From: a virus
Strand: one strand, 5' to 3'
DNA: 64,000 nucleotides
IMG/VR virus record: IMGVR_UViG_3300043499_000058
Coordinates: 1 to 64,000 of that record
Below are positions 13,596 through 46,028 of this stretch, piece after piece. The notes below the pieces were generated by a model. It did no database searches and was not told the origin of the DNA. It was given only the letters and a program-made list of their open reading frames with translations. The position numbers and the translations under genes were made by a program. Numbering within the stretch: position 1 is the stretch's first letter; the number at the start of each line of letters is the position of its first letter.

Positions 13596-13978
13596 GCTGC
13601 CTTTCGTGCCAGGGCTTTCTCATTGAAAGGTTCAACCAACAGGTTGTCAGCGATTTGTTTTTCGATCTCGACAAATCGCTTGCACTTTGTCTGCGAAACA
13701 AAATACGGTCGAATTAGCGCGAACGCGGCGCGAGCTTGGTTGCCACTGACAACCCACTCCCACCTGTCCCGATGACGAATGTTCTTCGACTTCTTCATCG
13801 AAATCGAGCCGCCAAACATTTCACGCAATCGCTGAACAGGCTCAGGCTCACATTGGTTCAACGACAACCGAAGATGCAACGACTGAAATCCATCGCCTCG
13901 CACTCGCCCATAGAGAATGCTGACGCACCCCTCGCCTTCAAAAAAGCCCGCAGCCCAAGCAGCGTCAGTCGCTTTCAT
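13586..13978 (-). CDS. LAGLIDADG homing endonuclease after recA
   Basis: 130 residues from ATG 13978 (GAGG six bases upstream, inside the end of recA). AWAAGFFEGEG near residue 8 is the LAGLIDADG helix. The single motif implies a homodimer. The final Trp-Ala codons match the recA sequence TGGGC, where the stranded RecA tail resumes, which locates the insertion point in the recA 3' end. Codon use is more AT-rich than in neighbouring genes, consistent with transfer. Confidence 0.88.
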   Translation of the reverse strand: MKATDAAWAAGFFEGEGCVSILYGRVRGDGFQSLHLRLSLNQCEPEPVQRLREMFGGSISMKKSKNIRHRDRWEWVVSGNQARAAFALIRPYFVSQTKCKRFVEIEKQIADNLLVEPFNEKALARKAAWA

Positions 13979-30756: not shown

Positions 30757-32016
30757 TCAGGATTGAATGTTCTTGCCTGCGTTGTAGTTTTCAAGCACTT
30801 GGGCCGGGGTCAAGACTTCGTTGTAGAGCGCCACTTCATCGATGGGGCCGTTGAAAAACTCCCCGCCCGCCTGGTTCGCGCCGACGCGTGCAACGGTAGC
30901 GGTGTCTGTCAACACCTGCGGAGTGACAGCACCCGTTCTGTCCACAGCGTTGATCCAGATTTTTGCGTTCACACCGTCATAGGTGACAACAAGGTGGTAC
31001 ACGGTGGCTGCGGTGAGCGCAATCGTGGACACGGCGATGTTGGCAACTGCTCGGCTCTGCAAGTAGACGCCGCCGCTGTCTGTGTAGAGAGACAACGTTC
31101 CGGTGCCCTTGTCATACAGACGACCGACCGCACCGCCCGAGTCCCCACGAACCCACATCTCAAGTGAAAACTGGTTGCCGACATTCAACTGCGCAGCGTG
31201 CGGGATTGTCATGTATTGAGTTGCACCGTCTAGGTCATACGCCGCTGTGTCGTCGTTGCCAGTAGCAACGAGGAGGCCCGGTGACGCAACTGCGGGTGGC
31301 GCACCGACCAGCGTGCCGTTGTTGCCATAGCCCGAGGCGTCATTCGCGTTTCCGTCCAAGCGGCTGTACCACACAGGTTGCTTGTTTCGTACCGTCCTGA
31401 AATAGCTCAGAGCATTCGCCTTGGAGTTGTCAATCGTGACTGCGATCCCGGCAGGTGTGACCCGTTGAAGCTCTTTCAGGAGTGACGGAATGTCAGGGGT
31501 AATCGAGCTTTTGATCCAGACCGCGTAGGCATAGGCGCGAACGTCCTCGTAGACACGATACGCCCCGACCAGGCTAGACACCCCTGACAACATAGACAAT
31601 CCGCCAGCCGAAAGCGACAAACCAGAGGGGGTGAATGACAACGCGTCACCAAACGTCGGCATGATAAACCCTTCGACAATCGATCTCACCCGAGATCGAG
31701 TGAATGGCCCGTACTGAAGCCGAGGCTTAATGATCGCTCGACGTTGAGCGTCAGTCTTGCCAACCGGCGCAATCGGTACCCGAACGATGTCCTCCCACAA
31801 GCTCAGGTACTCGCTCGCCGTACTGACAAACATCTCCTCCCCGAGATGATCAATCTCATCGATACACGACTGAACGATGTCCATGAGGACTTTTCGCGTC
31901 TGACCAAAGTTCGAGTCCTGGTTTTCAGGCCAGAGGCCAGGCGGCGAGAGTTCGATGAACGCGAGTTCCGCGTCCGTGTAGGTGCCCTCGGGGAGAAGTG
32001 TCGGCTGACCGATCAT
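30757..32016 (-). CDS. Baseplate I-like protein with LamG domain
   Basis: 419 residues. Residues 1-200 resemble phage tail protein I (P2 gpI, DUF2313): EEMFVSTASEYLSLWEDIVR and TDAQRRAIIKPRL. Residues 215-415 are a LamG/concanavalin-type beta sandwich (WYSRLDGNANDASGYGNNGT; FSLEMWVRGDSGG; GPIDEVALYNEVLTPAQV), a common glycan-binding module. The fusion puts a sugar-binding lectin fold at the baseplate rim. ATGA overlap with the J-like gene. Confidence 0.82.
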   Translation of the reverse strand: MIGQPTLLPEGTYTDAELAFIELSPPGLWPENQDSNFGQTRKVLMDIVQSCIDEIDHLGEEMFVSTASEYLSLWEDIVRVPIAPVGKTDAQRRAIIKPRLQYGPFTRSRVRSIVEGFIMPTFGDALSFTPSGLSLSAGGLSMLSGVSSLVGAYRVYEDVRAYAYAVWIKSSITPDIPSLLKELQRVTPAGIAVTIDNSKANALSYFRTVRNKQPVWYSRLDGNANDASGYGNNGTLVGAPPAVASPGLLVATGNDDTAAYDLDGATQYMTIPHAAQLNVGNQFSLEMWVRGDSGGAVGRLYDKGTGTLSLYTDSGGVYLQSRAVANIAVSTIALTAATVYHLVVTYDGVNAKIWINAVDRTGAVTPQVLTDTATVARVGANQAGGEFFNGPIDEVALYNEVLTPAQVLENYNAGKNIQS

Positions 32017-33431
32017 GTGACGGTGATCGTTCCCGGCACGCGCTTCTGCGTGGCCGTCGCTGTCTGATCAGTTGCCGGTGTGCTGACAACCACAGTAGCC
32101 ACCCCTGGCAGACCGAAGATCGCATCGATGAGTCCTGCGATGTAGACGGTGCCGCCGACTGGAACGGCATTGATGTAGTCCGTGATCGCCTCCTGCACCG
32201 ACGCGGTGACATCCGCGAGCAGATACCCACCTGCCAGCGTGATCGCCACAGTGACATTCGTAGAAACCTGAGTGAACGTGGCCACGTGAATCGTGATGTT
32301 GGCAATGTCGCGCATTGTCAGGTCTGCGAGAACTGCCGCGATGACCCCGGCACTCGGGATCGATCCATTCGGCCCTGCGATCCTGACTGTGACATGCCCC
32401 GGTGTGGCGACGCCCACGTTGTCATTGTTGAACGCCGTGGCTGAGTCAACACCCTCGATGGCCTCGGCCCACGATTCGAGATCGGCCATCGAGCCGGTGC
32501 GCGGGTTGCGGATGAAATCGAGCAAGCGGGCACGGAATGTTTCCATGTCCTCCTCGTCCGTAGCCCCGGCGAACGTGGTGGTGTTTGTCACGTCCGTTAC
32601 GCCGTCCGGCACCTGCACAAGCTCGCGGATCGCGCCGATGACCGCGTTGTATGCCACCCCCGAGTCCTCGGACTCGCCTGCGACTGAAATCCGCTCGGCC
32701 GTTGACTCTACCACCGGCGCACCTACCAGCGCCGTATCGTTGTCAGTCCCGGTAGTGGTCACGTTGTTGGCGAACGTCGCGTTGAGCGCGTCCACGTTCT
32801 GCCACGCCCCACCGTTCAGACGCCGGTAGAGCTTCCTGGCAGTCGTGCCAGGGCCACCGGCAGCGACCACGGTGATTGTCGCCTGCTTGTTGATCGCCAA
32901 CACCAGGGCATTCGACGCCGGGCCAATTTCAGTCTCCCCTGCTGCTGTGACAAACGAGTAAGCCCACTCGTACGTTCCCGCTGGCAGGGCACCTGCGCCA
33001 CCGTCCGTTGCGACGGGCGCTGCGGGATCGCCAGGATTCGGGATCACCGAGTCGGCCGTTGTCAGGTAATAGAGAACATCACCCTCGCCTACGTCCACAC
33101 CGACCATCGCGCCGGTCAAGATCGACGTGCCGCCAGCGCCAGTGAACATGAGCGTGCCAATCGCCTTGGTTCCCTGCTTTACTGACAAGCCGTACTGTTC
33201 GCCGTGACGACGAAGCTCGACAAGGTTCGCGGAAGTGACAAAGATGTTGTCCCGCTGAATTTGGTTGGCCAGGTACACGCCCTCCAATACCTCTGCCATG
33301 ACTTCAGCGAAGATGCGAACGTTGCCGTCCTCCTCCACGTGGATGTCAGAGATGCGAGACTGGTATCGCTGAATGATGTCAGCGACGATCTGATCGCGGT
33401 TCCTGTAGATCACGTCAGCCTCTATCGGCAT
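32013..33431 (-). CDS. Baseplate J-like wedge protein with inserted beta domain
   Basis: 472 residues. The ends match baseplate_J (Mu gp47/P2 gpJ): N-terminal QSRISDIHVEEDGNVRIFAE and QRDNIFVTSANLVELRRHGE; C-terminal FRARLLDFIRNPRTGSMADL, VTVRIAGPNGSIPSAGV and a final beta unit. Residues about 130-245 contain a fibronectin/Ig-like insertion (AGTYEWAYSFVTAAGETEIG; TARKLYRRLNGGAWQ). Its first four residues, MPIE, are repeated with other codons at the start of the adjacent endonuclease gene. Confidence 0.88.
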   Translation of the reverse strand: MPIEADVIYRNRDQIVADIIQRYQSRISDIHVEEDGNVRIFAEVMAEVLEGVYLANQIQRDNIFVTSANLVELRRHGEQYGLSVKQGTKAIGTLMFTGAGGTSILTGAMVGVDVGEGDVLYYLTTADSVIPNPGDPAAPVATDGGAGALPAGTYEWAYSFVTAAGETEIGPASNALVLAINKQATITVVAAGGPGTTARKLYRRLNGGAWQNVDALNATFANNVTTTGTDNDTALVGAPVVESTAERISVAGESEDSGVAYNAVIGAIRELVQVPDGVTDVTNTTTFAGATDEEDMETFRARLLDFIRNPRTGSMADLESWAEAIEGVDSATAFNNDNVGVATPGHVTVRIAGPNGSIPSAGVIAAVLADLTMRDIANITIHVATFTQVSTNVTVAITLAGGYLLADVTASVQEAITDYINAVPVGGTVYIAGLIDAIFGLPGVATVVVSTPATDQTATATQKRVPGTITVT

Positions 33432-33826
33432 GACAATTCCTCTCCGAAGTAGTAGTCATGCGTCTCGATCAGAAGCGCGGCCCGTTCTCGCTTGACAATC
33501 AGCCAAGGAAACAGTTGATCAAGTACGTTACGCGCATTGGCACCGTAGCATTGCCAACGCCAAGATTCCTTCTGCTCAGGTCGATTCGGCCGAAGCAGAA
33601 CGACGCTGCCACATCCAGTGACAACTTGAATGCGACGAATGATCTCCTCGTTTGTCATGGCAACTGCCATCGTGATCGCGCATCGCTGGTTTCGACGCTT
33701 GGTATCGAAGCACGTACCCTCGCCATCGAATAGGCCCGCAAGCCAAGCGACCTCTATTTCAGACATCTCTCGGGCAGGAACACCCCGCGTCTTGCCGCCA
33801 TTTCTAGTCCATACTTCGATTGGCAT
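33422..33826 (-). CDS. LAGLIDADG endonuclease at start of J-like gene
   Basis: 134 residues with VAWLAGLFDGEG near residue 28. GGAGGGGG precedes the ATG. The opening MPIE equals the start of the downstream J-like protein, using CCA-ATC-GAA where that gene has CCG-ATA-GAG. The element seems to have taken over the original start and supplied a recoded one. It overlaps the J-like gene by 10 bases. Confidence 0.88.
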   Translation of the reverse strand: MPIEVWTRNGGKTRGVPAREMSEIEVAWLAGLFDGEGTCFDTKRRNQRCAITMAVAMTNEEIIRRIQVVTGCGSVVLLRPNRPEQKESWRWQCYGANARNVLDQLFPWLIVKRERAALLIETHDYYFGEELSCR

Positions 33827-33839
33827 TTGTCACCCCCTC

Positions 33840-34247
33840 CTAGATTGGAAGCTCGAACGTCAGGGACTCGCCCATTCGATCCTCGACGGGCACGCCTGCA
33901 TCGCTCGACCTGATTGTGTAATCGATTCGCATTTTCACTCCACCTATGCCTTCTTCTTCAACCACTACGTCTGTCAGTTCGATGTCGTCTGACATCGGGG
34001 CAAGCGCCTCGTCCACCATGAGCCGTAGCTCGCGCAGCACGCGGCCGCGAGGGAGACGTACAGCCTCCTCCAAGCGACTGCCGAGCGCGCCGTCTGATGG
34101 ATCGAGCGCCCATGCCCGTCTGACAATTCTGAGACGAGTCCGAATTCGTTGTGCGATGACCTGTTCACCCTCGACACCCTGAAAGTCACGATTGCCACTG
34201 AAAAGCCAATCGCCGGTGACAGGATCGATTGCAAGATCGTATGCCAT
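33840..34247 (-). CDS. GPW/gp25-like baseplate wedge protein
   Basis: 135 residues; AGGAGGG precedes the ATG. The family pattern is clear: an early GDWLFSGNRDFQGVEGEQVI, IRTRLRIVRRAWALDP, and a final VKMRIDYTIRSSDAGV. gp25-like proteins carry a lysozyme-like fold and start sheath assembly at the baseplate. Its place between the hub and J-like genes is canonical for myoviruses. Confidence 0.87.
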   Translation of the reverse strand: MAYDLAIDPVTGDWLFSGNRDFQGVEGEQVIAQRIRTRLRIVRRAWALDPSDGALGSRLEEAVRLPRGRVLRELRLMVDEALAPMSDDIELTDVVVEEEGIGGVKMRIDYTIRSSDAGVPVEDRMGESLTFELPI

Positions 34248-34256
34248 ACCGCCCTC

Positions 34257-34598
34257 CTAACCCACGTAGCTTCCAGCGCGTGACAAAACTGGCCCCAAGC
34301 ACTTCGGCAAACGGCGACTACCCATCTGCCGCAGGACGACGACTAGCTCGCCCACCTTCGGGACTTCCGGTTCTATGAGCGCCGTCTTTTTGTCAACCCC
34401 TGTTGGTGTGGTGTCGTAGTAGGTGACAATGTGTCGCAGGCCGACAATCGGGATCGCCTGGTCGCCATACTCCTTGAGCCAGACAAGTTTCTTTGTCACG
34501 TCTCGCTTGACCACTTTGCCGTAGGTGACTTCGTGCGGCGGAATGCCGCGCCGAATCTCCTCGAAGATCGCATCGTAGTCTCTGTCATTCAGCCCCAC
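34257..34598 (-). CDS. Baseplate protein, gpV/gp5-like OB fold
   Basis: 113 residues from GTG 34598 (GGGGGATAGC upstream). A helical start is followed by strands (VTKKLVWLKEYGDQAIPIVG; VGELVVVLRQMGSRRLPKCL) that fit the OB-fold of baseplate spike or assembly proteins. It sits between the hub and gp25-like genes. The assignment rests on context and the strand pattern. Confidence 0.65.
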   Translation of the reverse strand: MGLNDRDYDAIFEEIRRGIPPHEVTYGKVVKRDVTKKLVWLKEYGDQAIPIVGLRHIVTYYDTTPTGVDKKTALIEPEVPKVGELVVVLRQMGSRRLPKCLGPVLSRAGSYVG

Positions 34599-34599
34599 G

Positions 34600-36831
34600 C
34601 TATCCCCCAAAGTCCGTGACAAATGGGATGTACCAATCGAACAGCCGTCTCGCGCCATAAAAGCTGTCGCGGTAGTACGGCGAGTTGAGCGGACTGATTT
34701 TCACCACGTCGCCTGTGTGCGGCGCGTGGATGAAATGTCCGTCGTTCAGGTAGATGCCGACATGGTGGATGTCGCCTCCGCTGGCGAACAGTACCAAATC
34801 CCCTGAGATCAGGTTATCCTTGTTGACTTTTTTCAGCGAAGTGTTCGAGGCAATGCTGTACGTGGTCGGCCTGGACGAGTTGGCAAAGAGTCGGCGCGCG
34901 TCTCCACCGGCAGAGTTGGCACCGCCAATGATGAGGCCCGAGCAGTCGAAGCTCGCAGGGCCGGAAGCTCCCCACTCATACGGCTTGCCGATCTGACGGA
35001 TCAGGTAATTGACAAATTTGCGAGCATCGTCCGGTGCGTTGTTGGGCATCTTGACCGGAAAGCGTGCGCCAGTCGCGTCTGTGACAACAACATCGGTTTT
35101 GTCACCTTCAGGTACCGAGTTGCCAGACGCCTCGATGTCCTCTGTCAGCCCCCGATAGCGGGTGTTCCAGATTGCCTTGACCGAATCGCGGTACCTGACA
35201 GCCGCAGTACCCGCGCCATTGTACGCCTGCACGCCGATCCAGATTTGATCCGGCTTCTGTGGATCAAGTCCTGACAACTTTCCGGCGAACGCTCGGGCGG
35301 CTGCGCGGATGTTTGCCTGCGGAATCCACCGGCCACCCTCGAACTCGTCACTCTTGCCGCCATAATCGTCAGCCCACTCCTTGTAGCCTCGCGTTGTCAG
35401 TTGAAATGGGCCAACTCCACGCTCACGGTCGAACGGGTTGCCAACGGTACCCGGCTGGTTTGCGAACTCGCGCCTCCATTGCTCGACCGCTGACATGCCC
35501 TGAGCAGCGCCAGGAGCGCCAGGAGCGCCCGTTCCGCTGCCAGACGTAGGTTTGGGGTACCATTCCGTGTCGCCGCTCTCAGGGACGTTTCTGAAGCTCG
35601 TCTCTTTGTCACAGATCGCAAGCAGAATCCCGAGGAAAAGATCGTAGGGCCAACCGTCGTGAAATTCCTGCGCGGCCGACGCGAACGAGTTGGCCCACCG
35701 GATGCCAGTCTGTCGCAGACCGGCTCCCACATCGCCCGGAAGGATGTCATCGGCAGGATCAGCTTCGAGAATCGGATCACTCGGGACGCGGCGCGAGATC
35801 GCGTAGTTCTTTTCACGCAGCCTGACTTCCTGAATGTACCCCTGCGGCCCGCCGATCAACCGAACGCCGACGATGAAAAAGATCCCATGCAGTCCCATGT
35901 CCGGCACGTTCAACTCGGCCATGTAGTTCTGCCTGACAAGTCGGCCGGTCGCCTCGAAGGGAATCGTCACTGACAATTCAAGCGCACCCACCTTGCCCTC
36001 GAAGATTTCCTCCCACGCCTCGACCAACGCTTCGCTGCGGTTCTTGGCGTCGGTTGAAGTGACAATCTTGATCGGGCGCTTTTTCCATGAACGCACGGAG
36101 GGGTCGGTGGCCTGAGCGACGAAACCGAGATCGCCGCGCTCACCGAACACCCACACTTCCCCTGATCTGCGCTGCGTGTCCTTGGTGATTGTCACCTTCT
36201 CCACCGGAATCCATCCCTGCCGGGTCGCCGTCTTGGTCGGGATTCCAAAGAAGTAGGTCGGACTGACAGCGTAGTTCAGTTTGTCAGCGATCAGTGTGCC
36301 GTCCGGCTCCTGCCAAATCCACATCTTGCGATTACGGTAGATGCGGTACCACGACTCCCAATACGACTCTGAGCCGTCGCGGTAGAACTTCTCTACACCT
36401 GTCACCCGAGCGAGCTTCATGCGCGTGAACCCGAGCGCGCTGGCCTCGCCCTTGACAAACACGTCCGGCCGCAGCTTGCGGAACTCGCCAGGGGGTGCTT
36501 GTGAATCGGTCGCAACGGAGGAGATGTCACGCCCCGCAATCGAGATCACGTGATCTTCGGACGAGTAGCTGACAACATCTGCGATCCCCGTTGAGAGATG
36601 CGTGACGTTCTTAGCTCGGGGAGAATCCGTGAAGATCGTAGCTCGAACCTCATTGTCACGATCCACCAGGAATTTCAGTTCAGGTGTCGGTGAACCGAGA
36701 TCGATGCTGAACGAGTCCGAGTCTGAATCCATCGCCGTGTCGATGGCAAACGCCTCGATGCTGGTCGATGGAAACTCCCGGTAGCCACGCCGACCGATTT
36801 CAGCCGTGATCAGGGCACGCACACTGATCAT
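34600..36831 (-). CDS. Baseplate hub with transglycosylase and NlpC/P60 domains
   Basis: 743 residues in three parts. Residues 1-350 look like a gpD/gp27-type tail hub (VEKVTITKDTQRRSGEVWVF; AELNVPDMGLHGIFFIVGVR). About 385-565 is an SLT-type transglycosylase region: AICDKETSFRNVPES with the catalytic Glu, and GVGPFQLTTRGYKEWADDYG. Residues 610-743 are NlpC/P60: GKPYEWGASGPASFDCSGL (catalytic Cys), DIHHVGIYL and HFIHAP (His). It would open both glycan and peptide links during DNA injection. ATGA overlap with the upstream gene. Confidence 0.9.
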   Translation of the reverse strand: MISVRALITAEIGRRGYREFPSTSIEAFAIDTAMDSDSDSFSIDLGSPTPELKFLVDRDNEVRATIFTDSPRAKNVTHLSTGIADVVSYSSEDHVISIAGRDISSVATDSQAPPGEFRKLRPDVFVKGEASALGFTRMKLARVTGVEKFYRDGSESYWESWYRIYRNRKMWIWQEPDGTLIADKLNYAVSPTYFFGIPTKTATRQGWIPVEKVTITKDTQRRSGEVWVFGERGDLGFVAQATDPSVRSWKKRPIKIVTSTDAKNRSEALVEAWEEIFEGKVGALELSVTIPFEATGRLVRQNYMAELNVPDMGLHGIFFIVGVRLIGGPQGYIQEVRLREKNYAISRRVPSDPILEADPADDILPGDVGAGLRQTGIRWANSFASAAQEFHDGWPYDLFLGILLAICDKETSFRNVPESGDTEWYPKPTSGSGTGAPGAPGAAQGMSAVEQWRREFANQPGTVGNPFDRERGVGPFQLTTRGYKEWADDYGGKSDEFEGGRWIPQANIRAAARAFAGKLSGLDPQKPDQIWIGVQAYNGAGTAAVRYRDSVKAIWNTRYRGLTEDIEASGNSVPEGDKTDVVVTDATGARFPVKMPNNAPDDARKFVNYLIRQIGKPYEWGASGPASFDCSGLIIGGANSAGGDARRLFANSSRPTTYSIASNTSLKKVNKDNLISGDLVLFASGGDIHHVGIYLNDGHFIHAPHTGDVVKISPLNSPYYRDSFYGARRLFDWYIPFVTDFGG

Positions 36832-37028
36832 CGTGTGGCCTCGATGTGATCCTCGATCATTGAGATGGCTTTGTCAGTCACGTATTCGGCTGCAAAGAAA
36901 CCGTCCGCGATCCTGTCGAATGCGGCAACGCGAAGCGGGAGCTTTTGGTTCGGGTACTTGCGCTCCCAAGCTCGAAAGGTCTGCGCGATTTTCACGTAGA
37001 CGTTGTTTACCTTGCGCGCCATTGTCAT
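36828..37028 (-). CDS. Small hypothetical baseplate-region protein
   Basis: 66 residues, helical and basic (AQTFRAWERKYPNQKLPLRV), with ATG directly behind the preceding TAG and ATGA into the hub gene. Function unknown. Confidence 0.65.
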   Translation of the reverse strand: MTMARKVNNVYVKIAQTFRAWERKYPNQKLPLRVAAFDRIADGFFAAEYVTDKAISMIEDHIEATR

Positions 37029-37724
37029 CTAGTAGTAGACCACCGTGCCCACCGGCAGCCGGTAGTCAGGTGCTTTGTGCGACGGAATGTCTCGGGAGTC
37101 GAACCACTTTGCGTTCGCCCTGATCGCGTAAAGCTCTGTCCACCGTGCCCCGTTCCTGAAAACCGCGTACGCGATCTTCCGCAGCGTGTTCGACTGCGAG
37201 TTTGCTTTGAACTGTCGCGTACCCCTGCCCTTGCCGGTTGTGCCTCGCCCCTGATCCGGTTGCGTCGGCCCGGTGTTCGGTGCCTTCTTGCCGGTGCCTA
37301 CCTTGACGACTGAAAACTGGTACTCGATGTCCATTGTCCGTTCGTCCTGAGCGTGGTTGAAAGTCTCACGCTCGGCAACGACGTACTGAAGGTTGGGGAG
37401 GATGCCAGGAAGGTGCAGGATCTTCCCGCGCTCGGGCGTGTCGGCGTAGAAGATCGCGCGCAACGCGTTCATGTTCTCCACGCTTGTCCAGCCGGGGAAC
37501 GTTCCTGACAACGTGATCGTCGTCTCGGACTTGTGCGTCACATCTACGTCAAGCTCGATTTCACCCAGGTACTTGTGACGCCCAAGCTCGGCCTGATCCT
37601 GAAGCTCGAACCCCTGCACCCCGAGCGGCCAGATGAAAGCCCGACCGCCAGGGATGGCAATGTACGGACGCGCAAAGTCGTCCTCGGGATCGAGCATGTA
37701 CGCGGCTGTGTCAGTCGGTGACAA
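37029..37724 (-). CDS. LysM-like tail/baseplate protein lacking a normal start
   Basis: 231 residues if TTG 37724 is used. The C-terminus (SNTLRKIAYAVFRNGARWTE ... LPVGTVVYY) is the LysM-like segment of gp53-type baseplate proteins; the N-terminal part is beta-rich. The frame stays open upstream and reads AIAHIPYPHNEDRPPDSPAL, convincing protein, but begins with GTA-GCC-ATC just after the endonuclease stop, with no ATG, GTG or TTG. The upstream endonuclease begins (M)THIP, mirroring AHIP. So the original start seems to have been captured and the replacement start is ATC or another non-canonical codon. Confidence 0.78.
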   Translation of the reverse strand: MSPTDTAAYMLDPEDDFARPYIAIPGGRAFIWPLGVQGFELQDQAELGRHKYLGEIELDVDVTHKSETTITLSGTFPGWTSVENMNALRAIFYADTPERGKILHLPGILPNLQYVVAERETFNHAQDERTMDIEYQFSVVKVGTGKKAPNTGPTQPDQGRGTTGKGRGTRQFKANSQSNTLRKIAYAVFRNGARWTELYAIRANAKWFDSRDIPSHKAPDYRLPVGTVVYY

Positions 37725-37804
37725 GTCCGTGTTGATTCCATGCCGCAGCGCCGGGGAGTCCGGTGGCCGATCCTCATTGTGTGGATACGGGATGTGAGCG
37801 ATGG

Positions 37805-38215
37805 CTACTCACCTACTTTCATTTCAGCAAGCAACGCCCAATCGTAATTGTCAGTGGCAAACTGATCTTTGGGCTGAATTCGTCCTCGCACTCGTCGTTC
37901 CTGAAAAGCAATTGCGATGACTGCCTGATCGTGTTTTTCAACCAAATACGGAAGCAGTTGCCGCAGAACCTCAGCGGCGTCTTGTGTACAAACCGTCCAC
38001 CACCATACATCCTGACTAGCTGGCCTCCTGACGGTGCCACCGAACATCGACTGCAACTTGTCAAGTGCAATACGACGTTTTTGACTGACAACCAACTTGA
38101 GCACAAATCGAACACCGCTAGAGGTTGTCTTACACTTCGCCTTTGACAAAGAAACACATCCTTCGCCATCGATAAACCCCGCAGCCCAAGCAAGATCAGT
38201 TGGAATGTGAGTCAT
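37805..38215 (-). CDS. LAGLIDADG endonuclease upstream of LysM-like gene
   Basis: 136 residues from ATG 38215 (TGACAATG after the tape-measure stop). LAWAAGFIDGEG near residue 8 is the LAGLIDADG helix; one motif, so a homodimer. The opening MTHIP parallels the downstream protein's AHIP with different codons (CAC-ATT-CCA and CAC-ATC-CCG). The final codons (GTAGGTGAG) repeat the tape-measure end GTAGGTGA. Confidence 0.87.
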   Translation of the reverse strand: MTHIPTDLAWAAGFIDGEGCVSLSKAKCKTTSSGVRFVLKLVVSQKRRIALDKLQSMFGGTVRRPASQDVWWWTVCTQDAAEVLRQLLPYLVEKHDQAVIAIAFQERRVRGRIQPKDQFATDNYDWALLAEMKVGE

Positions 38216-38217
38216 TG

Positions 38218-40413
38218 TCACCTACCCCCTTGCGGCCCACGCCGCTGCGCTTTCTTTTGGCCTCGGAATCGCGGAGCGCCCTGCACGTTGTCAAGCTTGA
38301 CCGGCAAGTAGGGTTCCTTGTTTGCGATGCGAAGCAGTTTGTCAAGATCCGCAGTCGGGACAAGGTGGACGGTGACGCCTGCCTCGCCCTGGATGTGAAC
38401 ACCGCCACCCCGACTCGGCCGTGCTGACAATCCACGATCCAACCGCTTGAGCCGAGCTTCAGCCGTCGCCGCTGAGATGTACCGATGCGAAAACGCTGAC
38501 AATACCTCTTGCTGATCGTCGGTCGGGCCTTCGTGGAATGACAATCCAGTAGCCCGAGTCGAACGACCGAGCTTTGCAAGGAACGGGAAGCCCTTTGGCA
38601 CCCGGCGTGCATCGCCTGAAGCGATTGCTCGCCTTGTGAATTCGTCCTGAAGCTGCTGCGCCGCGATGGGGGTTCCCAAAAGCGCCGCCGTTGCCCCTGT
38701 CGCTTTCAGTCCAGTCGCCAGGTTCTTTCTGCTCCACAGCGGCACCACCGGAGGCTTAGTCGTGCCGCCGCCAGTACCCGTCCCTGTCGGTGCGCCAGGC
38801 ATGAACCATGAGAGCGGATCGATGACAACCCAATACGGGTTCGAGCGCGAGCCTGAACGTGTTTGTCCTTCGCCTGTAGCTGAAAACGCCCCGAGTCCAG
38901 AACCGACGACTGACGCCGCCGCAAGCTGCGGTGCCCGCGTTGCGAGGCCAGGGAAACGGCCCATGATGTTTTTCAGGCCAGGGATGCGCGCTGCGCCCTT
39001 CCCGAGCATTCCGACGATCCCCGCGCCGAAGATCAGCCTAGAGGCCAACGCTGCCCCGCCTACGGCCCCCACAGCCCCCGTAACGGCCGACGGGTTCTGA
39101 TCGGTAATCCAATCACCAATCCGGTTGATCTGCATGGCGATGGGCCGCAGCGCCGGGTCAGCACCGCGAGCAACTGTCAGGCCCACGTTGCGCTGAATCT
39201 GCCCAAGCTGCTGATACGCCCTTTGTCTGTTTCGCTGCTCGGCCATCTGCTTGCCAAGCTCCGCGTCTTTGGCTTTGTTGATCCCGTCAACGAATTTTTC
39301 AAGCGCCGGGATTCCACCCTGCGCCATGAGGTTGAGGAACTGCCTGAAAGATTCCTGACGGCCAAAGAGCTTCGAGGCCAATGTCAGGTTGATACCTGAC
39401 GCACCCGAGCCAGCGATAGCCGCGTCGTCGTCCAAGCCCTCGACACCGAGCGCCATCGGGTTCGAGAAGCGAGCGCCATTCGGGGCTACCGCCTGCATCA
39501 TCTTCTGAAGCACCTGAAAACCGCCAAGCGCGCGCAGTTGCGACGGGTCAGTTGGCAGACCGGCCTGCCGAAACGCTTTCATCTGATCGTCGGTCTGCGG
39601 CCGGATGATCTCGGACGCGAGCAACTGCGTCACGCCTCGACCGATGACAGCCGGTGAACCACCGGAGCGAGCCGCGAGTCCGTACACGGCCCAAATCTGC
39701 TCGGGGGTCATGCGCGATGCGGTCTGCGCGGCACCGAGTCGGCCAATGTCACGCGCGATGTCCTCACCGCGAACAGTAGGCGTCTCTTGCAGAACGCGAG
39801 CGATGATGTCACGCATACGTGCGCCCTGAGCGCCAATGTCACGCGGCGTACCGGGAGGGGTGGCACCGATGATCATTCCGGCGACACCACCGCCGAGCGC
39901 CTGCGGGTCTGCACCTTCCGCGAACATCGAGATTTCAGCCATCGTCTTTGCGTATTTGTCAAGCATGTTGAGTCCACGCTGACCACGTACGTCGTCACCG
40001 AACGATGAGTAGAAGCGGATCATGTGCTGCTGGATGTCATCGACGGCGATCCCGAATCGGTTGCTCAGGTCGATGGCGATGTCGCCAACCTGATTCAAGC
40101 CGCGCCCGAGACTTGTCAGTTTGCCGTTGGAATCGATCTCTCCCGCAAGCGCATCAATTTCACCCAGGCGGTCAAGGAACTGGCCGAGGCCACTGACAGC
40201 GGACGCTGTTGCGTACACCGTGGCCCCGGCCAGCGCGTATCTGATCGTCGTACCGACCGCGCGCATCTGCTGACCCCACAGCCCGAGGTTGCGCGTGTGC
40301 GAACGAACCTGCCGGTCGAAACCGACAAGCCCGCCGATGTTCCGCTCGATGTCAGCCCGAAGCTGCGCACCGTGCGAAGTCCAGATGAGATTAAGTCTGT
40401 AGTCAGACGACAC
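38218..40413 (-). CDS. Tape measure protein
   Basis: 731 residues from GTG 40413 (GAGG upstream). Helical N-terminus with GLWGQQMRAVGTTIRYALAG, then long Ala/Gly-rich regions with hydrophobic stretches near the middle (GAVGAVGGAALASRLIFGAG) and a basic C-terminus. It follows the frameshifted chaperone genes as expected. At roughly 1.5 angstroms per residue it predicts a tail of about 110 nm. Confidence 0.88.
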   Translation of the reverse strand: MSSDYRLNLIWTSHGAQLRADIERNIGGLVGFDRQVRSHTRNLGLWGQQMRAVGTTIRYALAGATVYATASAVSGLGQFLDRLGEIDALAGEIDSNGKLTSLGRGLNQVGDIAIDLSNRFGIAVDDIQQHMIRFYSSFGDDVRGQRGLNMLDKYAKTMAEISMFAEGADPQALGGGVAGMIIGATPPGTPRDIGAQGARMRDIIARVLQETPTVRGEDIARDIGRLGAAQTASRMTPEQIWAVYGLAARSGGSPAVIGRGVTQLLASEIIRPQTDDQMKAFRQAGLPTDPSQLRALGGFQVLQKMMQAVAPNGARFSNPMALGVEGLDDDAAIAGSGASGINLTLASKLFGRQESFRQFLNLMAQGGIPALEKFVDGINKAKDAELGKQMAEQRNRQRAYQQLGQIQRNVGLTVARGADPALRPIAMQINRIGDWITDQNPSAVTGAVGAVGGAALASRLIFGAGIVGMLGKGAARIPGLKNIMGRFPGLATRAPQLAAASVVGSGLGAFSATGEGQTRSGSRSNPYWVVIDPLSWFMPGAPTGTGTGGGTTKPPVVPLWSRKNLATGLKATGATAALLGTPIAAQQLQDEFTRRAIASGDARRVPKGFPFLAKLGRSTRATGLSFHEGPTDDQQEVLSAFSHRYISAATAEARLKRLDRGLSARPSRGGGVHIQGEAGVTVHLVPTADLDKLLRIANKEPYLPVKLDNVQGAPRFRGQKKAQRRGPQGGR

Positions 40414-40774
40414 TGAAAACCCTCGCTTCGATAGCTTCGATTACCTCAAGCGCGCCTGCTCGTTTCAGGATCAGATGTGGAGTAATTCGTTTGAGGATTT
40501 TCAGGATGTCCTCACGTCGATTGACTGCAAGCACACGCATTTCCCGAGTGCCATATGCCTTCCGGCTTTGCTTGGCGATACGGCTCTGACAAACGATTCC
40601 GTTGACGTTCAGGAAGGTTTCCAACGCGTGAATTACGTCAGACGTTTTGTCAACCTGGCCCCAGGTGATCTGGAAATGGATTCGTTCCTTTTTGTCAACC
40701 CACCACAGGATCGAGCCATCACCGTCAGTGAAGCCCGCCACGTAAGCCCATGTCATCGGTTTTGCGCTACTCAC
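40403..40774 (-). CDS. LAGLIDADG endonuclease at start of tape measure gene
   Basis: 123 residues from GTG 40774 (AAGGAG upstream, GTGA overlap). WAYVAGFTDGDG near residue 9 is the LAGLIDADG helix. It begins Met-Ser-Ser (GTG-AGT-AGC), as does the tape measure protein (GTG-TCG-TCT): same residues, all different Ser codons. It overlaps the tape measure start by 11 bases. Confidence 0.87.
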   Translation of the reverse strand: MSSAKPMTWAYVAGFTDGDGSILWWVDKKERIHFQITWGQVDKTSDVIHALETFLNVNGIVCQSRIAKQSRKAYGTREMRVLAVNRREDILKILKRITPHLILKRAGALEVIEAIEARVFSVV

Positions 40775-41636
40775 TCAGGCTCCTTGTTGTCAGCCGCCGC
40801 GTAGCGTGCATCTTGCTCCGCGATGTTTGCTTCGGGATCGGCAAAGATGGCCTCGATCTCTCTGCGCCGGTCTGACTTCTCCTCCTCTGACAACGTTGCG
40901 AGATGGGAGACATCTTCGCCGGGGCGGTAGACCTCATCCTTGAACCGATCTGCAAGCTCCTTCATCTCCTGGGGGTTGAACGGTTTGTGACAAACCTCGC
41001 AAGTGACAAGTCGTCCGTACGCTTCTGCTTCTAGCTCGTCTACACACCAAGGGTGGACGGCGGCTCGTCGCTCGTCCCAATCAATTTCAGTGTGGAGATA
41101 AGTGAGGGTGAGTTGTCCAGGGGTAGACCCGCCGGAAGGGTCATAAAGACTCCCTTTAGATGCCACCACGGTTTTCCAGAGAGAGCGTTCCAGTCGATTG
41201 TCACCAACGCTTTTTTTAGCTCGTCCAGCCTCTCGTCGTCCAACCCGTCGATGGCAGGCGAACTGAAATCGACCATGCGCTGATAGCACTCGCTCAGGTA
41301 GTTGATCTCGGTCGGCTCCAAGCCAACCTCGGGATCGAGCATCTGTTCGAGCGAATCGAACACGCGCCGTTCGTGATTGTCAGGATCGCGCAGGCAGTAG
41401 AGCAACGTGCAGACCTGCATGGTGCGATCCCGAAGATCGACGCCGTAAACGTTTTCAGGCGCAGGAATGTCTGCGGCCTGTTCGAGTGTCCACTGATACT
41501 CCTTCTCGATCAGCGGCACCATTGCGAAGCCGATGCTCGGTCTGTCAGGGAGAGTCACGTAGTCGGGCGCTTGCTGACCCATCCTGATCTTGGCGATCCG
41601 CCGACTCTCTTTCATCCTGTCAAGGATTTCACTCAC
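40771..41636 (-). CDS. Tail assembly chaperone, frameshift fusion (GT-type)
   Basis: The second chaperone frame (40771 up to about 41157) is -1 relative to gene 41040-41636, has no sensible start of its own, and overlaps it by 250 bases. A slip at AAAGGGA (41151-41157) would fuse the first 158 residues or so to SLYDPSGGSTPGQLTLTYLH and the rest, including a CEVCHKP zinc-like pair and an acidic end. The order chaperone, frameshift, tape measure is conserved in long-tailed phages. GTGA overlap into the endonuclease gene. Confidence 0.8.
41040..41636 (-). CDS. Tail assembly chaperone (G-type)
   Basis: 198 residues from GTG 41636. The helical C-terminal half (FDSLEQMLDPEVGLEPTEIN; YQRMVDFSSPAIDGLDDERL) resembles tail chaperones of myophages. 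The unshifted product ends shortly after the slippery site. It folds and delivers the tape measure during tail assembly. Confidence 0.8.
   Translation of the reverse strand: MSEILDRMKESRRIAKIRMGQQAPDYVTLPDRPSIGFAMVPLIEKEYQWTLEQAADIPAPENVYGVDLRDRTMQVCTLLYCLRDPDNHERRVFDSLEQMLDPEVGLEPTEINYLSECYQRMVDFSSPAIDGLDDERLDELKKALVTIDWNALSGKPWWHLKGVFMTLPAGLPLDNSPSLISTLKLIGTSDEPPSTLGV
41151..41157 (-). other. -1 ribosomal frameshift site AAAGGGA
   Basis: In the chaperone frame the ribosome reads CTA-AAG-GGA; sliding back one base gives AAA-GGG, the X XXY YYZ pattern of a -1 slippery heptamer. The codon after the slip (AGT) is in the frame of the extension. A second, weaker candidate is GGAAAAC about 20 bases earlier. 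Confidence 0.7.
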
Positions 41637-41970
41637 GACTCATTCCGCCCTTCTTGATTGTCTGGATGTCAGCCGCCATCTCGGGTGTAGTCGTCGTGTC
41701 CCACCCGACCGGCAGCGCGTACAAGATCCGGTTGCAACAGTGTGTCTCAGCCCGGATGACAAACTCGCTGAGTTTGCCAGAGCCACCTGAACCAAGCTCC
41801 GTCACTTCGGGGTCGAGCTTCCCGCAGAACGGACAAACAGGTGGCCCTGGCTCTGCCATGACAATCTGCTCCTCTTTCGCAAGAGTGAGCATCTGCTCAG
41901 TGGCCTCAGCGTTTCGTTCGACCGCCGCGATGAGGCGATCCATTCGGTTGTCAGTCCCGCCCTTCTTCAT
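41629..41970 (-). CDS. Tail protein with zinc knuckle
   Basis: 113 residues from ATG 41970 (GAGGGA upstream). A helical start (MDRLIAAVERNAEATEQMLT), CPFCGK near residue 46 and HCCNR later suggest a zinc site. It lies between tube and chaperones, where tail accessory proteins occur. Exact role unknown. Confidence 0.68.
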   Translation of the reverse strand: MKKGGTDNRMDRLIAAVERNAEATEQMLTLAKEEQIVMAEPGPPVCPFCGKLDPEVTELGSGGSGKLSEFVIRAETHCCNRILYALPVGWDTTTTPEMAADIQTIKKGGMSRE

Positions 41971-41972
41971 CG

Positions 41973-42365
41973 CTAGTCCCTCACGTAGCCGGGAACGGAG
42001 ATGTTGCAGTTGAGCGTCACCTGCTCCTGGCCGCTCTGGATGCGAATGAGCGTCCAGTTGCATCCCCGGTACACGTTGCGGTCGTCTCCGCGTCTTGTCA
42101 TCGACTCGAAGTCCCGCAGCGTCTTGAGACGACGCTCGTTGTTCATGCCCCTCGCCACGCCTCTTTTCAGGAGGATGGCCGAGAACGTAATCTCGTCCTC
42201 GTCTGCTCCGCGTACTGTGCGGAGGACAGGGCCATCGACGCCGAACGCTCCCTGAAAACGTACCTCCTGCCGGAACTCCTCCGTCATGTCTTGCGTTGCG
42301 GCGAAGTCCTCACCGGCAATGAAGATGCCGAGATCAGGTGCGTTGAGTGCTTCGAGCCAGGCCAC
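41973..42365 (-). CDS. Tail tube protein
   Basis: 130 residues from GTG 42365. A beta-rich protein of tube-protein size, containing VRFQGAFGVDGPVLRTVRGA, DEITFSAILLKRG and VTLNCNISVPGYV, placed directly after the sheath gene (one endonuclease intervenes). Its first residues, MAWL, are repeated by the endonuclease with other codons. It forms the inner tube of the contractile tail. Confidence 0.78.
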   Translation of the reverse strand: MAWLEALNAPDLGIFIAGEDFAATQDMTEEFRQEVRFQGAFGVDGPVLRTVRGADEDEITFSAILLKRGVARGMNNERRLKTLRDFESMTRRGDDRNVYRGCNWTLIRIQSGQEQVTLNCNISVPGYVRD

Positions 42366-42366
42366 C

Positions 42367-42795
42367 CTAGCTCACCCCCTCGAACGAACGGGTAACGCGA
42401 CCGTCCGTAATGGTTCCTTCCATGATTTCTGCCATCCTTTCTTCGATGTCCTCGACGGCCTTGATCGCCTCGTCGTTCTTGACAATCAGATACGGCAACA
42501 TCGCATAGAGCATCTTGTAGACGTTTGCCACACCATTGACAGCCAGAGCGAACGAGCCGCTATGACCCTTTTTCAAGCGATCAGGCCGATGATGGATTTC
42601 GACAGTCGCCTTGATTCCTTCGATTTCAAGGAAAGTGACAATGGCGTCAAGAACTTCTCGACGGTTCTGATAGATTTTCAGCCTACTTTGCCGCCGAATC
42701 GTTCCACGCGTCTGCCGACCAACACGGCAATCCACACAGCCTTCGCCATCGAAGAATCCAGCGACGTAAGCCCATGAGATCGGCAACCATGCCAT
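42367..42795 (-). CDS. LAGLIDADG endonuclease between sheath and tube
   Basis: 142 residues; GAGGAGG then TGACA precede the ATG. WAYVAGFFDGEG near residue 8 is the LAGLIDADG helix. It opens MAWL (ATG-GCA-TGG-TTG), like the downstream tube protein (GTG-GCC-TGG-CTC). It thus sits on the strong ribosome site that probably belonged to the tube gene. Confidence 0.88.
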   Translation of the reverse strand: MAWLPISWAYVAGFFDGEGCVDCRVGRQTRGTIRRQSRLKIYQNRREVLDAIVTFLEIEGIKATVEIHHRPDRLKKGHSGSFALAVNGVANVYKMLYAMLPYLIVKNDEAIKAVEDIEERMAEIMEGTITDGRVTRSFEGVS

Positions 42796-42813: not shown

Positions 42814-43932
42814 TTAGACCGGGATGACAAGCTGTGCGTCAACGAGGATCGTCTGGATGCCCCGGATGACCTCGCCCTTGTAGCTGACCGTGACAGACTT
42901 GTTGTCAGCCGACGGGATGATCGCCACACCGTAGCCAGCCGTTCCGTCAGGCTGCGTGAGTGGCTTGACCCAATTCGACCGCTCGGCAAGCAGCGCCTCG
43001 ACACCGGCCTTGAGATCGTTCCGGTTTGTCAGGGTGTTGCCGCGACGAAGGAAGTTCTGCGTTTCCGCATAGTCCCTCACGTCGATGAAAAGCTGATCCA
43101 CGATCAGCCTTGTCATCACAGCGTCGAACGTTGTGTCAGTCGTCCACGTGGTGCGAAGGTGCGCGATCTCCACGCCCCCATAGCGTCCACGCCGAAGCAT
43201 GGAGACACCGCCCTGAAGCAGAGTCTCCATGTCGTTGACGGCGACACCGGCCGTGACCTTGATCCTGAACATCGGCAAGCCGGTGGAATCGCGCTCGACA
43301 TCCGTGAAGGCAGCGAGCCTCATGGTGTCCAGATCGTCTGACAAATCGCTGTTCTTGGCGACCTCTGCTGCTACAGCCGCAGCCGCGTACGCGCCCGTAC
43401 GGAGTGTGCCGTTCTCGTCGTAGAAGCCAGGGGCAACGAGGACAGCCCGCTTGGAAGCGATGGCGGCAGCCGCCGTGATCAGGTTGGCCGACGAAGTTGC
43501 GTTCGCCATGCCGACAAAGGCCACCTGCTTGTTCTGGATCAGTTCTGCGTTTTCAGCCGAGTCCGCAAGTGCGACGAGATCGGCCTGGGTGATGGAGTCT
43601 GTCAGCCGGATACGCAAGTCCGGGTTGGCCTCTTGAATTGCCCACGCCGCCTGACGCTGCGGGAGAGTCGGCCCTGCGGCTGAGGCCGAGGCAACTGCCG
43701 TGACCTGGGGAACCCCGCGACCGAGAACGAACCTGACAAGCAGGGCCAACGGTGACGCTGGCCCAAACAACGTGTCAGCCTCCGAAGGACGCGTGATGAC
43801 AGCCGGGACGAGAATCGCCTGTGTGCCGCCCGCGTCCTTCTGCCCTTCGATCCCGATGGGGAGATAGAGCGCCTGTGAAAATCGCGGCCCGAGGCTAGTC
43901 GCGTCTTTGACTTCGGGGTACAACTGACTCAT
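42814..43932 (-). CDS. Contractile tail sheath protein
   Basis: 372 residues; AAGGAG precedes the ATG. Typical sheath features: LFGPASPLALLVRFVLGRGV, the Ala-rich PGF region (KRAVLVAPGFYDENGTLRTG), and the C-terminal domain VMTRLIVDQLFIDVRDYAET followed by VKPLTQPDGTAGYGV. It is compact compared with T4 gp18. This is the key evidence for a myovirus. Confidence 0.9.
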   Translation of the reverse strand: MSQLYPEVKDATSLGPRFSQALYLPIGIEGQKDAGGTQAILVPAVITRPSEADTLFGPASPLALLVRFVLGRGVPQVTAVASASAAGPTLPQRQAAWAIQEANPDLRIRLTDSITQADLVALADSAENAELIQNKQVAFVGMANATSSANLITAAAAIASKRAVLVAPGFYDENGTLRTGAYAAAAVAAEVAKNSDLSDDLDTMRLAAFTDVERDSTGLPMFRIKVTAGVAVNDMETLLQGGVSMLRRGRYGGVEIAHLRTTWTTDTTFDAVMTRLIVDQLFIDVRDYAETQNFLRRGNTLTNRNDLKAGVEALLAERSNWVKPLTQPDGTAGYGVAIIPSADNKSVTVSYKGEVIRGIQTILVDAQLVIPV

Positions 43933-44576: not shown

Positions 44577-45184
44577 CGTGTCGTCCTCAGTAGACCTTGA
44601 CGTGCGGCCCACCGATGCTGACTTGGAATCCGAGGCCGAGCCGATGTGGTTCGCACATGGCTTGTCATCGGCGCGGCTAGGAGTGTGCTGCCCTGCATAC
44701 GTGCGGAGAAGCTGCGGAACCGACCCTTATTGTCACGCAGACTCCCAAACGTTTCAGACATGATCCTCTCAGCGAAGCGCGTACGCTGGATGAACCGAAG
44801 GGTTGCGACCCCTGACATTCGCAAGATGGGTCGGCGCACTCCTCCACCACCCGCGACGATTCCGTGTTCGACCATCCAAGCCCCCCGCTCCTCATTGAAA
44901 ACCTCCCACGCTCCGGGTGACACTCTCCGCACGCGCCAGCCTCGTCCTGACGCTCCGGTGATCCGCCTGACAGGGATCGTGCCAGCGCGTCCACCGGGAG
45001 CTTGAGCGCCCCGATAGTACCGCATTGCGTAGCCCTGCGTCGTGTGAGCCATGAGCCTCGCCGCCAGACCCATCACGTCTGAAAACTCTTTGCTACCCGT
45101 ACGCATCGAACGGATCAGCGTGTCGATTTCATCGAACGTCTGCCGACTGATTCCGTAGCCCTGTGGGATGACATATCTAGCCAA
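44573..45184 (-). CDS. Neck/tail completion protein, basic
   Basis: 203 residues from TTG 45184 (no strong ribosome site; overlap of 8 bases). The protein is Arg-rich with ERGAWMVEHGIVAGGGGVRR and RTRFAERIMSETFGSLRDNK; the pattern resembles neck proteins of actinophages (HK97 gp10-type). Assigned by position. Confidence 0.62.
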   Translation of the reverse strand: MARYVIPQGYGISRQTFDEIDTLIRSMRTGSKEFSDVMGLAARLMAHTTQGYAMRYYRGAQAPGGRAGTIPVRRITGASGRGWRVRRVSPGAWEVFNEERGAWMVEHGIVAGGGGVRRPILRMSGVATLRFIQRTRFAERIMSETFGSLRDNKGRFRSFSARMQGSTLLAAPMTSHVRTTSARPRIPSQHRWAARQGLLRTTR

Positions 45185-46028
45185 CGTTGCGCTCTGTTTT
45201 CACCAAACGCAGGCCGACTTCCCAATGGTGCGGGCCACCACCACTCGGGTCAGGGATCTTATTGCCACTGACAACGATATACCTGCGTCCGTCGTAACGA
45301 ACGTAGTCCTCACCGCCCATCGACCAGCTAAAGAAATCCAGATCGACACCGTTCCATGACAACGGGAAGATACCAAGGTGATCGTCCATTTCGACTTCAC
45401 CGAATAGCTGTTGCGCATACTCGGCTGTCAGGCGGCGCACCGCGCCTGCCTGCACCGGCTGGATGAATGCTTTTACCGGCAGACTGACAAGCACCGTGGG
45501 GATGAGTCCCTGTTCGTTGCACATCGGCGGCGGCGCAACCGGCGCAGGCCCGACAACATTCGGCAAGTTGTTTTCATTCACCGGCGGCACAATGTCTGCC
45601 CACTGACCGATTTGCACCAGCGCGCCATCATTGAGACTGCGATACAGGCGAATGCTTGTCACCGGGTCAGGCGGGAAGTCGGCCGCATGGAACTCCTCAA
45701 AGATAACCGACACGATCTCGTTGAGCGTGATCAGCGGTGCTGAAAACGTAGTCAGCTTATCGAACACCGCATGGCCTGGGATCTCCCATCGGTACCCGAC
45801 CACATACCTGACAGAGCCAGTGACATTGCCACCACCGCTTGCGACGGCCGCGAAGGGCACATCCCCCGGCTCGTACGCGACCTCGACTGGCTGATGCCAT
45901 TTCAGGTTGCGATATCCGAGCGATGTCAGGCAGGGACAAGGTGTCCCGGCACCTTCGCGGTGGTATTCCGCGTCAGAGCCGTTTACTGACAACAGGGCGT
46001 TGAACCTAGCGATGTTACTCATTTTCAC
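45177..46028 (-). CDS. Head-closure protein with inserted FN3-like domain
   Basis: 283 residues from GTG 46028. The ends look like an actinophage head-closure protein: GTPCPCLTSLGYRNLKWHQ and, far downstream, CNEQGLIPTVLVSLPVKAF. Between the CPC and CNE parts lie about 130 residues with FN3-like beta features (VRYVVGYRWEIPGHAVFD; TSIRLYRSLNDGALVQIGQW). The C-terminus is beta-rich. The insertion splits what is normally a short loop. Confidence 0.68.
   Translation of the reverse strand: MKMSNIARFNALLSVNGSDAEYHREGAGTPCPCLTSLGYRNLKWHQPVEVAYEPGDVPFAAVASGGGNVTGSVRYVVGYRWEIPGHAVFDKLTTFSAPLITLNEIVSVIFEEFHAADFPPDPVTSIRLYRSLNDGALVQIGQWADIVPPVNENNLPNVVGPAPVAPPPMCNEQGLIPTVLVSLPVKAFIQPVQAGAVRRLTAEYAQQLFGEVEMDDHLGIFPLSWNGVDLDFFSWSMGGEDYVRYDGRRYIVVSGNKIPDPSGGGPHHWEVGLRLVKTERNVG

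Follow-up and report, generated by a model that had tools for sequence, protein, structure and literature searches.

Comparison with related genomes indicates that the selfish, DNA-cutting genes in the window (64,000 nucleotides, positions 1 to 64,000 of IMG/VR virus record IMGVR_UViG_3300043499_000058) lie at the coding ends of essential phage genes, among the first or the last few codons, each accompanied by a copy of those codons in a different spelling. We consider it likely (probability roughly 0.8) that these are free-standing homing elements that insert at either end of an essential coding sequence, capture the native end and supply a re-spelled replacement. Since the re-spelled copy would be brought by the element, the host gene should still be functional and is probably uncuttable.

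The first-pass annotation had claimed that four LAGLIDADG genes, all on the minus strand, start like the tail gene downstream of them (HEG-A, 33422-33826; HEG-B, 37805-38215; HEG-C, 40403-40774; HEG-D, 42367-42795), and we confirmed all four pairs at these places. With Met and Trp left out, codons are identical at 1 of the 10 same-residue positions in the four pairs (9 of 10 differ), compared with 4.0 of 10 predicted by random synonymous choice (P(<=1) = 0.033). Behind the endonuclease stop, the host gene is equipped with a start and a ribosome-binding site of its own, and its first codons are duplicated, not split. HEG-A, HEG-B, HEG-D and a fifth gene, HEG-E, match Pfam LAGLIDADG_1 or LAGLIDADG_3, and HEG-C was assigned by alignment with HEG-D. 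An AlphaFold model of HEG-D (pLDDT 86) found its best Foldseek matches in I-CvuI and I-CreI (E about 1e-7); the modeled secondary structure, H-E-E-H-E-E-H (alpha-beta-beta-alpha-beta-beta-alpha), together with the motif, places it among LAGLIDADG homing endonucleases of the single-motif, homodimer type. As is the mark of homing elements, related genomes either have or lack the gene at one exact position: occupancy differs among the window, a close relative from a bacterial genome collection (L194, tube protein 90% identical) and other relatives at the tube, J, 37029-37802 and sheath genes and at the ends of the RecA-like gene and of gene 45177-46028. Where elements are lacking, the relatives' tail genes begin directly behind the upstream gene.

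The tail tube gene (41973-42365, minus strand), which comes after the sheath gene, is the host of HEG-D (Pfam LAGLIDADG_3/_1). Its native start is the first 12 bases of the endonuclease gene (42784-42795, ATGGCATGGTTG, read as ATG GCA TGG TTG), which are identical in the same-site endonuclease gene of L194 and in an empty relative, L010. The re-spelled tube codons 1-4 (patch D, 42354-42365, minus strand) read GTG GCC TGG CTC; compared with the native ATG GCA/GCG TGG TTG, the start codon and both the Ala and Leu codons are changed. L194 combines the same endonuclease-borne start with a different patch, ATC GCT TGG CTT. The joined native site would read ATGGCATGGTTG followed directly by GAAGCACTCAACGC, and the junction carries no insertion in 12 of 12 viral relatives bearing the tube gene. 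Across distant tube relatives, first-codon identity (8-12 versus 8-10 of 12) does not discriminate, and only the nearest relatives do so.

A similar picture was obtained for the baseplate J-like protein gene (32013-33431, minus strand; Pfam Baseplate_J, 3.7e-33). HEG-A (Pfam LAGLIDADG_3) carries the native J start (33815-33826, ATGCCAATCGAA, ATG CCA ATC GAA), and J codons 1-4 are re-spelled as ATG CCG ATA GAG (patch A, 33420-33431, minus strand). At the same point L194 has an Endonuclease VII-type gene (Endonuclease_7, PF02945, 8.8e-18) that is unrelated to HEG-A, yet shows the same arrangement: it begins GTG CCA ATC GAA, and the J patch behind it, ATG CCG ATT GAA, differs from that of the window. 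At both tube and J, the gene-start context of empty relatives is matched by the sequence ahead of the endonuclease start but not by that ahead of the present gene start (scores of 16 versus 2 for L008, 12 versus 4 for L010 and 14 versus 3 for L011, with a random 99.9th percentile of 11). In L011, this endonuclease-side context stands directly before J.

These comparisons bear on the opposite assignment of the two copies, in which the endonuclease copy is a re-spelled leader brought by the element and the original start stayed with the downstream gene. We consider this improbable, as the upstream context and the tube and sheath comparisons point the other way and the changed start codons downstream (ATC, GTG) are what patches would be expected to show. 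The sheath start in the window (ATG AGT CAG TTG, 43921-43932, minus strand) is empty, but occupied in L194; it agrees with the L194 endonuclease-borne copy at 11 of 12 bases and with the L194 sheath patch at 7 of 12. Judged by this identity, the endonuclease-borne sheath start of L194 is native and its downstream copy re-spelled, so that the outcome contrary to the opposite assignment is seen here, between the window and L194. A search for a cultured relative of the sheath among phage records found none. A wedge site in L194 (MAWEHDIAW / MWDIATDP) looks similar and is a candidate case.

Site B is what the opposite assignment has in its favor. HEG-B (Pfam LAGLIDADG_1, 2.8e-9) begins ATG ACT CAC ATT CCA and precedes a conserved tail-region gene (37029-37802, minus strand) that is 83% identical to its L194 counterpart over the whole length. 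No ATG, GTG or TTG start is present at the echo in the downstream gene, which reads ATC GCT CAC ATC CCG there (37788-37802, minus strand); since conservation with L008 and L194 extends to the AHIP region, the gene probably starts at this ATC (37802). The site is empty in both relatives, and the L194 start (ATG GCG CAC ATC CCG) is nearer the downstream copy (13 of 15) than the endonuclease copy (11 of 15). This is the outcome that the earlier annotation had named as contrary to its reading, seen at that one site. The annotation's proposal that each element inserted within the first codons, kept the native start and left the host a recoded one holds for tube and J and is doubtful at site B, where either copy may be native.

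For the tape measure, the same proposal fits the data, with HEG-C present in the window and L194 alike. The host is a tape measure-like gene (38218-40413, minus strand; 731 aa) between the tube and baseplate genes, with a weak Pfam PhageMin_Tail match under the cut-off. HEG-C begins GTG AGT AGC and is homologous to HEG-D, though a Pfam search with the window copy gave no match. L194 carries an 88% identical element and an identical patch (GTG TCG TCT, tape measure codons 1-3; patch C, 40405-40413, minus strand), and L008 is empty at the junction. The echo noticed earlier is present, but with just two residues it is weak taken alone (score 8).

A fifth case, absent from the first-pass annotation, is a mirror image of the others at the end of a RecA-like gene (13515-15050). 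Here the insertion of HEG-E (13586-13984, minus strand; Pfam LAGLIDADG_1) falls within the 3' end of the gene, which has a re-spelled tail, QQNSLSISNPESEDDNESD (patch E, 13965-14024, minus strand), and the native tail, ITENSKAISAPEADEEGEDDGDE, is stranded behind the endonuclease gene (13515-13586, minus strand). The stranded tail matches that of a RecA-like gene free of an endonuclease gene on the L194 contig (WAIAENSKAIG.., L195). Tested against random window segments, the stranded tail scores 50 (p 0.003). A scan of viral contigs for the RecA-like gene found none.

Conversely, the end of gene 45177-46028 (VGLRLVKTER.., 45177-45206, minus strand) is uninterrupted in the window, and L194, L091 and L092 have a 3'-end endonuclease gene there. 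The L194 endonuclease reading frame ends in VGLRLVKTERPTDG and a stop, and its host gene has its own re-spelled end, VGLRLVKTERPTG, and a stop; the window codons match the endonuclease-fused copy at 6 of 10 positions and the patch at 2 of 10, which identifies the former as the native end. In L027, an endonuclease gene is fused to a terminase tail with 21 of 21 residues identical and 12 of 21 codons different. The combination of a host gene with a replacement end and a native end left behind the endonuclease is found in the window RecA-like gene, in L194 (5294-5803) and in the L027 terminase gene. Further supporting cases occur on L116 (terminase), L017 (helicase P-loop), L042 and L039.

We also considered that these could be ordinary intergenic endonuclease genes whose shared first residues reflect chance or a convergent preference for N-terminal residues. 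Prefix scores of at least 16 occurred in 7 of 49 non-redundant endonuclease loci (2 of these in the window), versus 0.42 expected when endonuclease starts were cross-paired with downstream starts between loci. Together with insertion points placed by relatives inside codons 4/5, copies of 12-21 residues in L027, L017 and L092, and the mirror-image cases, this makes such a coincidence very improbable, despite the modest scores of two- and three-residue echoes such as that of HEG-C. A second, more distant endonuclease set, meant as a replicate, was negative (start echo in 0 of 32, 0.1 expected), and we therefore take the start echo to mark a subset of these genes. The gene-start echo was not seen in eight endonuclease loci of cultured Streptomyces, Mycobacterium, Gordonia, Caulobacter and Arthrobacter phages and cyanophages. 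For tube, J, the L194 sheath, RecA and the L027 terminase, intergenic insertion or chance was excluded. Pseudo-palindromes at the joined sites were no better than chance, and when flanks were compared generically in three frames, low-complexity, G+C-rich matches predominated, so only matches checked by hand were kept. The genome-wide TTGTCA motif is as dense in the endonuclease genes as in the rest of the genome, so these genes may be long resident.

A more serious possibility, though still a minority one in our view, is transfer of foreign fragments, in which the gene ends came from diverged phages, the divergence of donor from recipient alone accounts for the codon differences and immunity to cleavage is a by-product, without selection for recoding. 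This is the favored reading for fungal mitochondrial elements (PMC3630166). The stranded L027 copy, with all 21 residues kept and silent differences only, no longer lies in the host protein, so that its differences must have been present at insertion. However, patch and native codons at gene starts are identical at only 2 of 18 positions, rarer than two independent draws from codon usage would give (7.2 expected, P 0.005; a second estimate for random synonymous choice, 5.4 expected, gives P 0.028), and the two phages' tube patches differ from each other, each being changed at every free position, start codon included. The gene-start patches are short (3-5 codons).

In the home-and-replace model that we prefer, the target of each endonuclease would lie within essential phage coding sequence, in the first few (or last) codons of a gene. 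Upon insertion, the endonuclease would acquire the native ribosome-binding site, start codon and next 2-4 codons, or the native tail where a gene end is the target. In exchange, the host gene would receive a new end carried by the element; at gene starts, this consists of a ribosome-binding site lying within the 3' part of the endonuclease gene and of differently spelled codons for the same residues. Re-spelling would preserve the protein and keep the cut site from being restored where the patch meets the rest of the gene. The element would thereby escape its own nuclease, and spread would proceed through co-infection and break repair. The native copy can be assigned by sequence at the tube, J, L194 sheath, L194 45177-46028 and RecA sites, as can the insertion points, the independent patches at one site and a codon divergence beyond random synonymous choice. 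We infer that the native site is cut, that the patch is immune and how the element spreads; for abolished cleavage and homing, the basis is that more codons differ than expected from random synonymous choice. It seems somewhat better than an even bet that phages carry a general, nuclease-independent home-and-rescue class, with the replacement end kept re-spelled by selection against self-cleavage and with the cost of an ATC start on a major tail protein.

According to the usual view, free-standing homing endonucleases are confined to the spaces between genes, since a gene would be disrupted by their insertion (PMC13405050). The elements described here suggest an entry route into essential coding sequence, by silent-codon replacement of the displaced piece; they would represent a natural form of recoded-rescue gene drive and allow selection by self-cleavage to be tested directly in sequences. 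They also carry a warning for annotation, as true starts may lie behind an endonuclease gene, possibly at ATC, and gene ends may be duplicated. T4 Seg enzymes (PMC2988022) and F-CphI (PMC6083498) are likewise free-standing genes beside essential genes, but these sit between genes and cut neighbors, whereas the present elements appear to split coding sequence and repair it with a re-spelled end. In such intronless homing, the donor is spared from self-cleavage because its sequence differs or, in the case of F-CphI, because its target gene contains an intron (PMC2988022, PMC6083498). The engineered home-and-rescue drive HomeR (PMC7968924) shares homing into an essential gene and a recoded rescue, presumably uncuttable here too, but is CRISPR-based and synthetic, whereas the phage elements are natural and protein-guided. 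Intron-like mobile insertions also carry a foreign copy of the adjoining piece of host gene, leading to fragment replacement; in the excerpted accounts, their duplications are longer and lie inside genes, and start-codon capture is not described. The nearest precedent is provided by fungal mitochondrial mobile ORFs with duplicated C-termini, in Allomyces macrogynus atp6 and Glomus sp. atp6, atp9, cox2 and nad3, where an endonuclease lies in the gene end, with a mostly silent replacement end and the native end stranded behind (PMC3630166). Our gene-end cases show this same duplication; the family as described is mitochondrial and limited to gene ends, and does not include a gene-start form. In contrast, the phage elements also occupy gene starts, where they capture the native start codon and leave patches that span 3-5 codons, and nucleases of two unrelated families share the arrangement.

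The window carries four LAGLIDADG endonuclease genes in its minus-strand contractile-tail cluster, HEG-A (33422-33826), HEG-B (37805-38215), HEG-C (40403-40774) and HEG-D (42367-42795), which precede the J gene (32013-33431), a conserved tail-region gene (g37029, 37029-37802), the tape measure gene (38218-40413) and the tube gene (41973-42365), respectively. A check of the sequence confirmed the first-pass positions of these genes and their partners exactly. HEG-E (13586-13984) lies at the 3' end of a RecA-like gene of the same virus record (64,030 bases). HEG-A, HEG-B, HEG-D and HEG-E fall into LAGLIDADG families by Pfam; HEG-C has no Pfam match, yet is alignable with HEG-D, whose AlphaFold model (mean pLDDT 86) shows the topology of single-motif LAGLIDADG enzymes, with I-CvuI and I-CreI as structural matches. 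Given that HEG-A, HEG-B and HEG-C are only 25-33% identical to HEG-D, the four genes are not all recent copies of a single element. A sixth LAGLIDADG gene, HEG-F (1668-2054), has no convincing copy of neighboring residues on either side.

By far the commonest hexamer in the window (1-64000) is TTGTCA/TGACAA, which occurs at 426 places, or roughly every 150 bases. Both strands carry it, and it is present in the endonuclease genes as in other genes. Its gaps (minimum 14, mean 150, SD 112) have an SD below the mean, and thus its spacing is more even than random. In the related contig L008 this hexamer likewise ranks first, and L194 and L084/L085 have it at high frequency, unlike more distant relatives.

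Residues common to the starts of an endonuclease gene and of the gene downstream (an "echo") were scored as prefix similarity over 49 non-redundant loci, with cross-paired loci as control. Seven of the 49 scored at least 16, versus 0.42 expected from cross-pairing, and echo-positive loci include the unrelated contigs L031, L033, L038, L041 and L017. The gene-start echo was found at 0 of 32 loci in a second, more distant sample, so it characterizes only part of the family. Longer N-terminal copies occur where the endonuclease gene lies within the P-loop of a helicase gene (L017, 3871-4462) or within a gene bearing a uracil-glycosylase-like motif (L039, 3800-4480).

The first-pass annotation proposed that the endonuclease keeps the native start and brings a respelled one (the "patch") for the tail gene. 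No insertion at the sheath/tube junction was found among 12 viral contigs with a related tube gene. There, the tube start is immediately preceded by a ribosome-binding spacer, which in most contigs resembles the spacer 5' of the window endonuclease and not that 5' of the window tube (match scores 16 versus 2 in L008, 16 versus 4 in L090 and 12 versus 4 in L010; random 99.9th percentile, 11). The endonuclease side was also favored at the J start (14 versus 3 in L011). Separately, at 18419-18927 in L010, the J homologue has about 170 extra in-frame residues, not an endonuclease, replacing residues 339-344.

Since its set of occupied sites is not that of the window, the close relative L194 (contig CALMZP010000084.1, from the bin of an Acidobacteria MAG; tube 90% identical to that of the window, tail-gene DNA about 76%) allows an exceptionally informative comparison. 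At the sheath start, empty in the window (ATG AGT CAG TTG), the L194 endonuclease begins ATG AGC CAG TTG (11/12 matches to the window sheath) and the L194 sheath ATG TCG CAA CTG (7/12). At the tube, the L194 endonuclease is 46% identical to HEG-D and has the same first 12 bases, ATGGCATGGTTG, while the tubes behind start ATC GCT TGG CTT (L194) versus GTG GCC TGG CTC (window), one native start respelled twice and independently. At J, L194 has an Endonuclease_7 gene (PF02945, 17603-18037; GTG CCA ATC GAA) in place of the LAGLIDADG gene (HEG-A, ATG CCA ATC GAA), and J itself starts ATG CCG ATT GAA (L194) versus ATG CCG ATA GAG (window); the start-capture arrangement is the same for both of these endonuclease genes. 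The tape measure site holds the same element (88% identical to HEG-C). The proposed direction finds no support at g37029, where the empty L194 site (ATG GCG CAC ATC CCG) is nearer the window's downstream copy (13/15) than HEG-B (11/15).

Across all gene-start pairs of the window and L194, 18 codons specify the same residue and only 2 of them are identical, compared to 7.2 expected from two independent draws from genome codon usage (P 0.005), or 5.4 with the patch codon drawn by usage against a given native codon (P 0.028). On these statistics, respelling appears to exceed saturated silent divergence, as avoidance of a cleavage site predicts. In four of seven pairs the start codon itself is altered: two have changed to ATC, one to GTG and one from GTG to ATG. 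The two apparent ATC starts, at 37800-37802 (g37029) and L194 9090-9092 (major tail tube), have good ribosome-binding sites ahead and no in-frame ATG, GTG or TTG at the echo.

A mirror image occurs at gene ends. The window RecA-like gene, which overlaps HEG-E, ends QQNSLSISNPESEDDNESD, and ITENSKAISAPEADEEGEDDGDE is found behind HEG-E, within no gene; the endonuclease-free L194 homologue ends WAIAENSKAIGVPPEDED, with DNA like this stranded copy. Behind the L194 homologue of 45177-46028, an endonuclease gene ends in VGLRLVKTERPTDG and the host gene bears its own VGLRLVKTERPTG, each before a stop; the uninterrupted window gene shares 6/10 codons with the endonuclease-fused copy and 2/10 with the patch. 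L091 and L092 have the same arrangement at this gene's end. In L027 and L116, the terminase tail forms the end of the endonuclease gene, and the L027 copies are identical at 21/21 residues and differ at 12/21 codons.

The sequence comparisons demonstrate insertion, capture and respelling. Most likely, the enzyme would cut close to the start (or end) of a gene still lacking the element, and repair from an element-bearing phage would insert endonuclease and patch. Translation of the endonuclease would then begin at the start that belonged to the host gene, and the patch would give the host gene a new start, served by a ribosome-binding site inside the endonuclease gene's 3' end. If the patch were not respelled, it would restore the target together with the codons downstream. 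We infer cutting, immunity of the patch and spread.

Phage free-standing endonucleases have been described as intergenic (PMC13405050; PMC6083498), and we found no report of phage start capture with a respelled patch in the literature searched, with subscription papers outside its coverage. Duplicated pieces of exons are found in mitochondrial insertions of Tremella (PMC7315562). In fungal mitochondria, mobile ORFs have duplicated C-termini with mostly silent differences, explained by horizontal transfer (PMC3630166); the present elements share this kind of solution, at gene ends.
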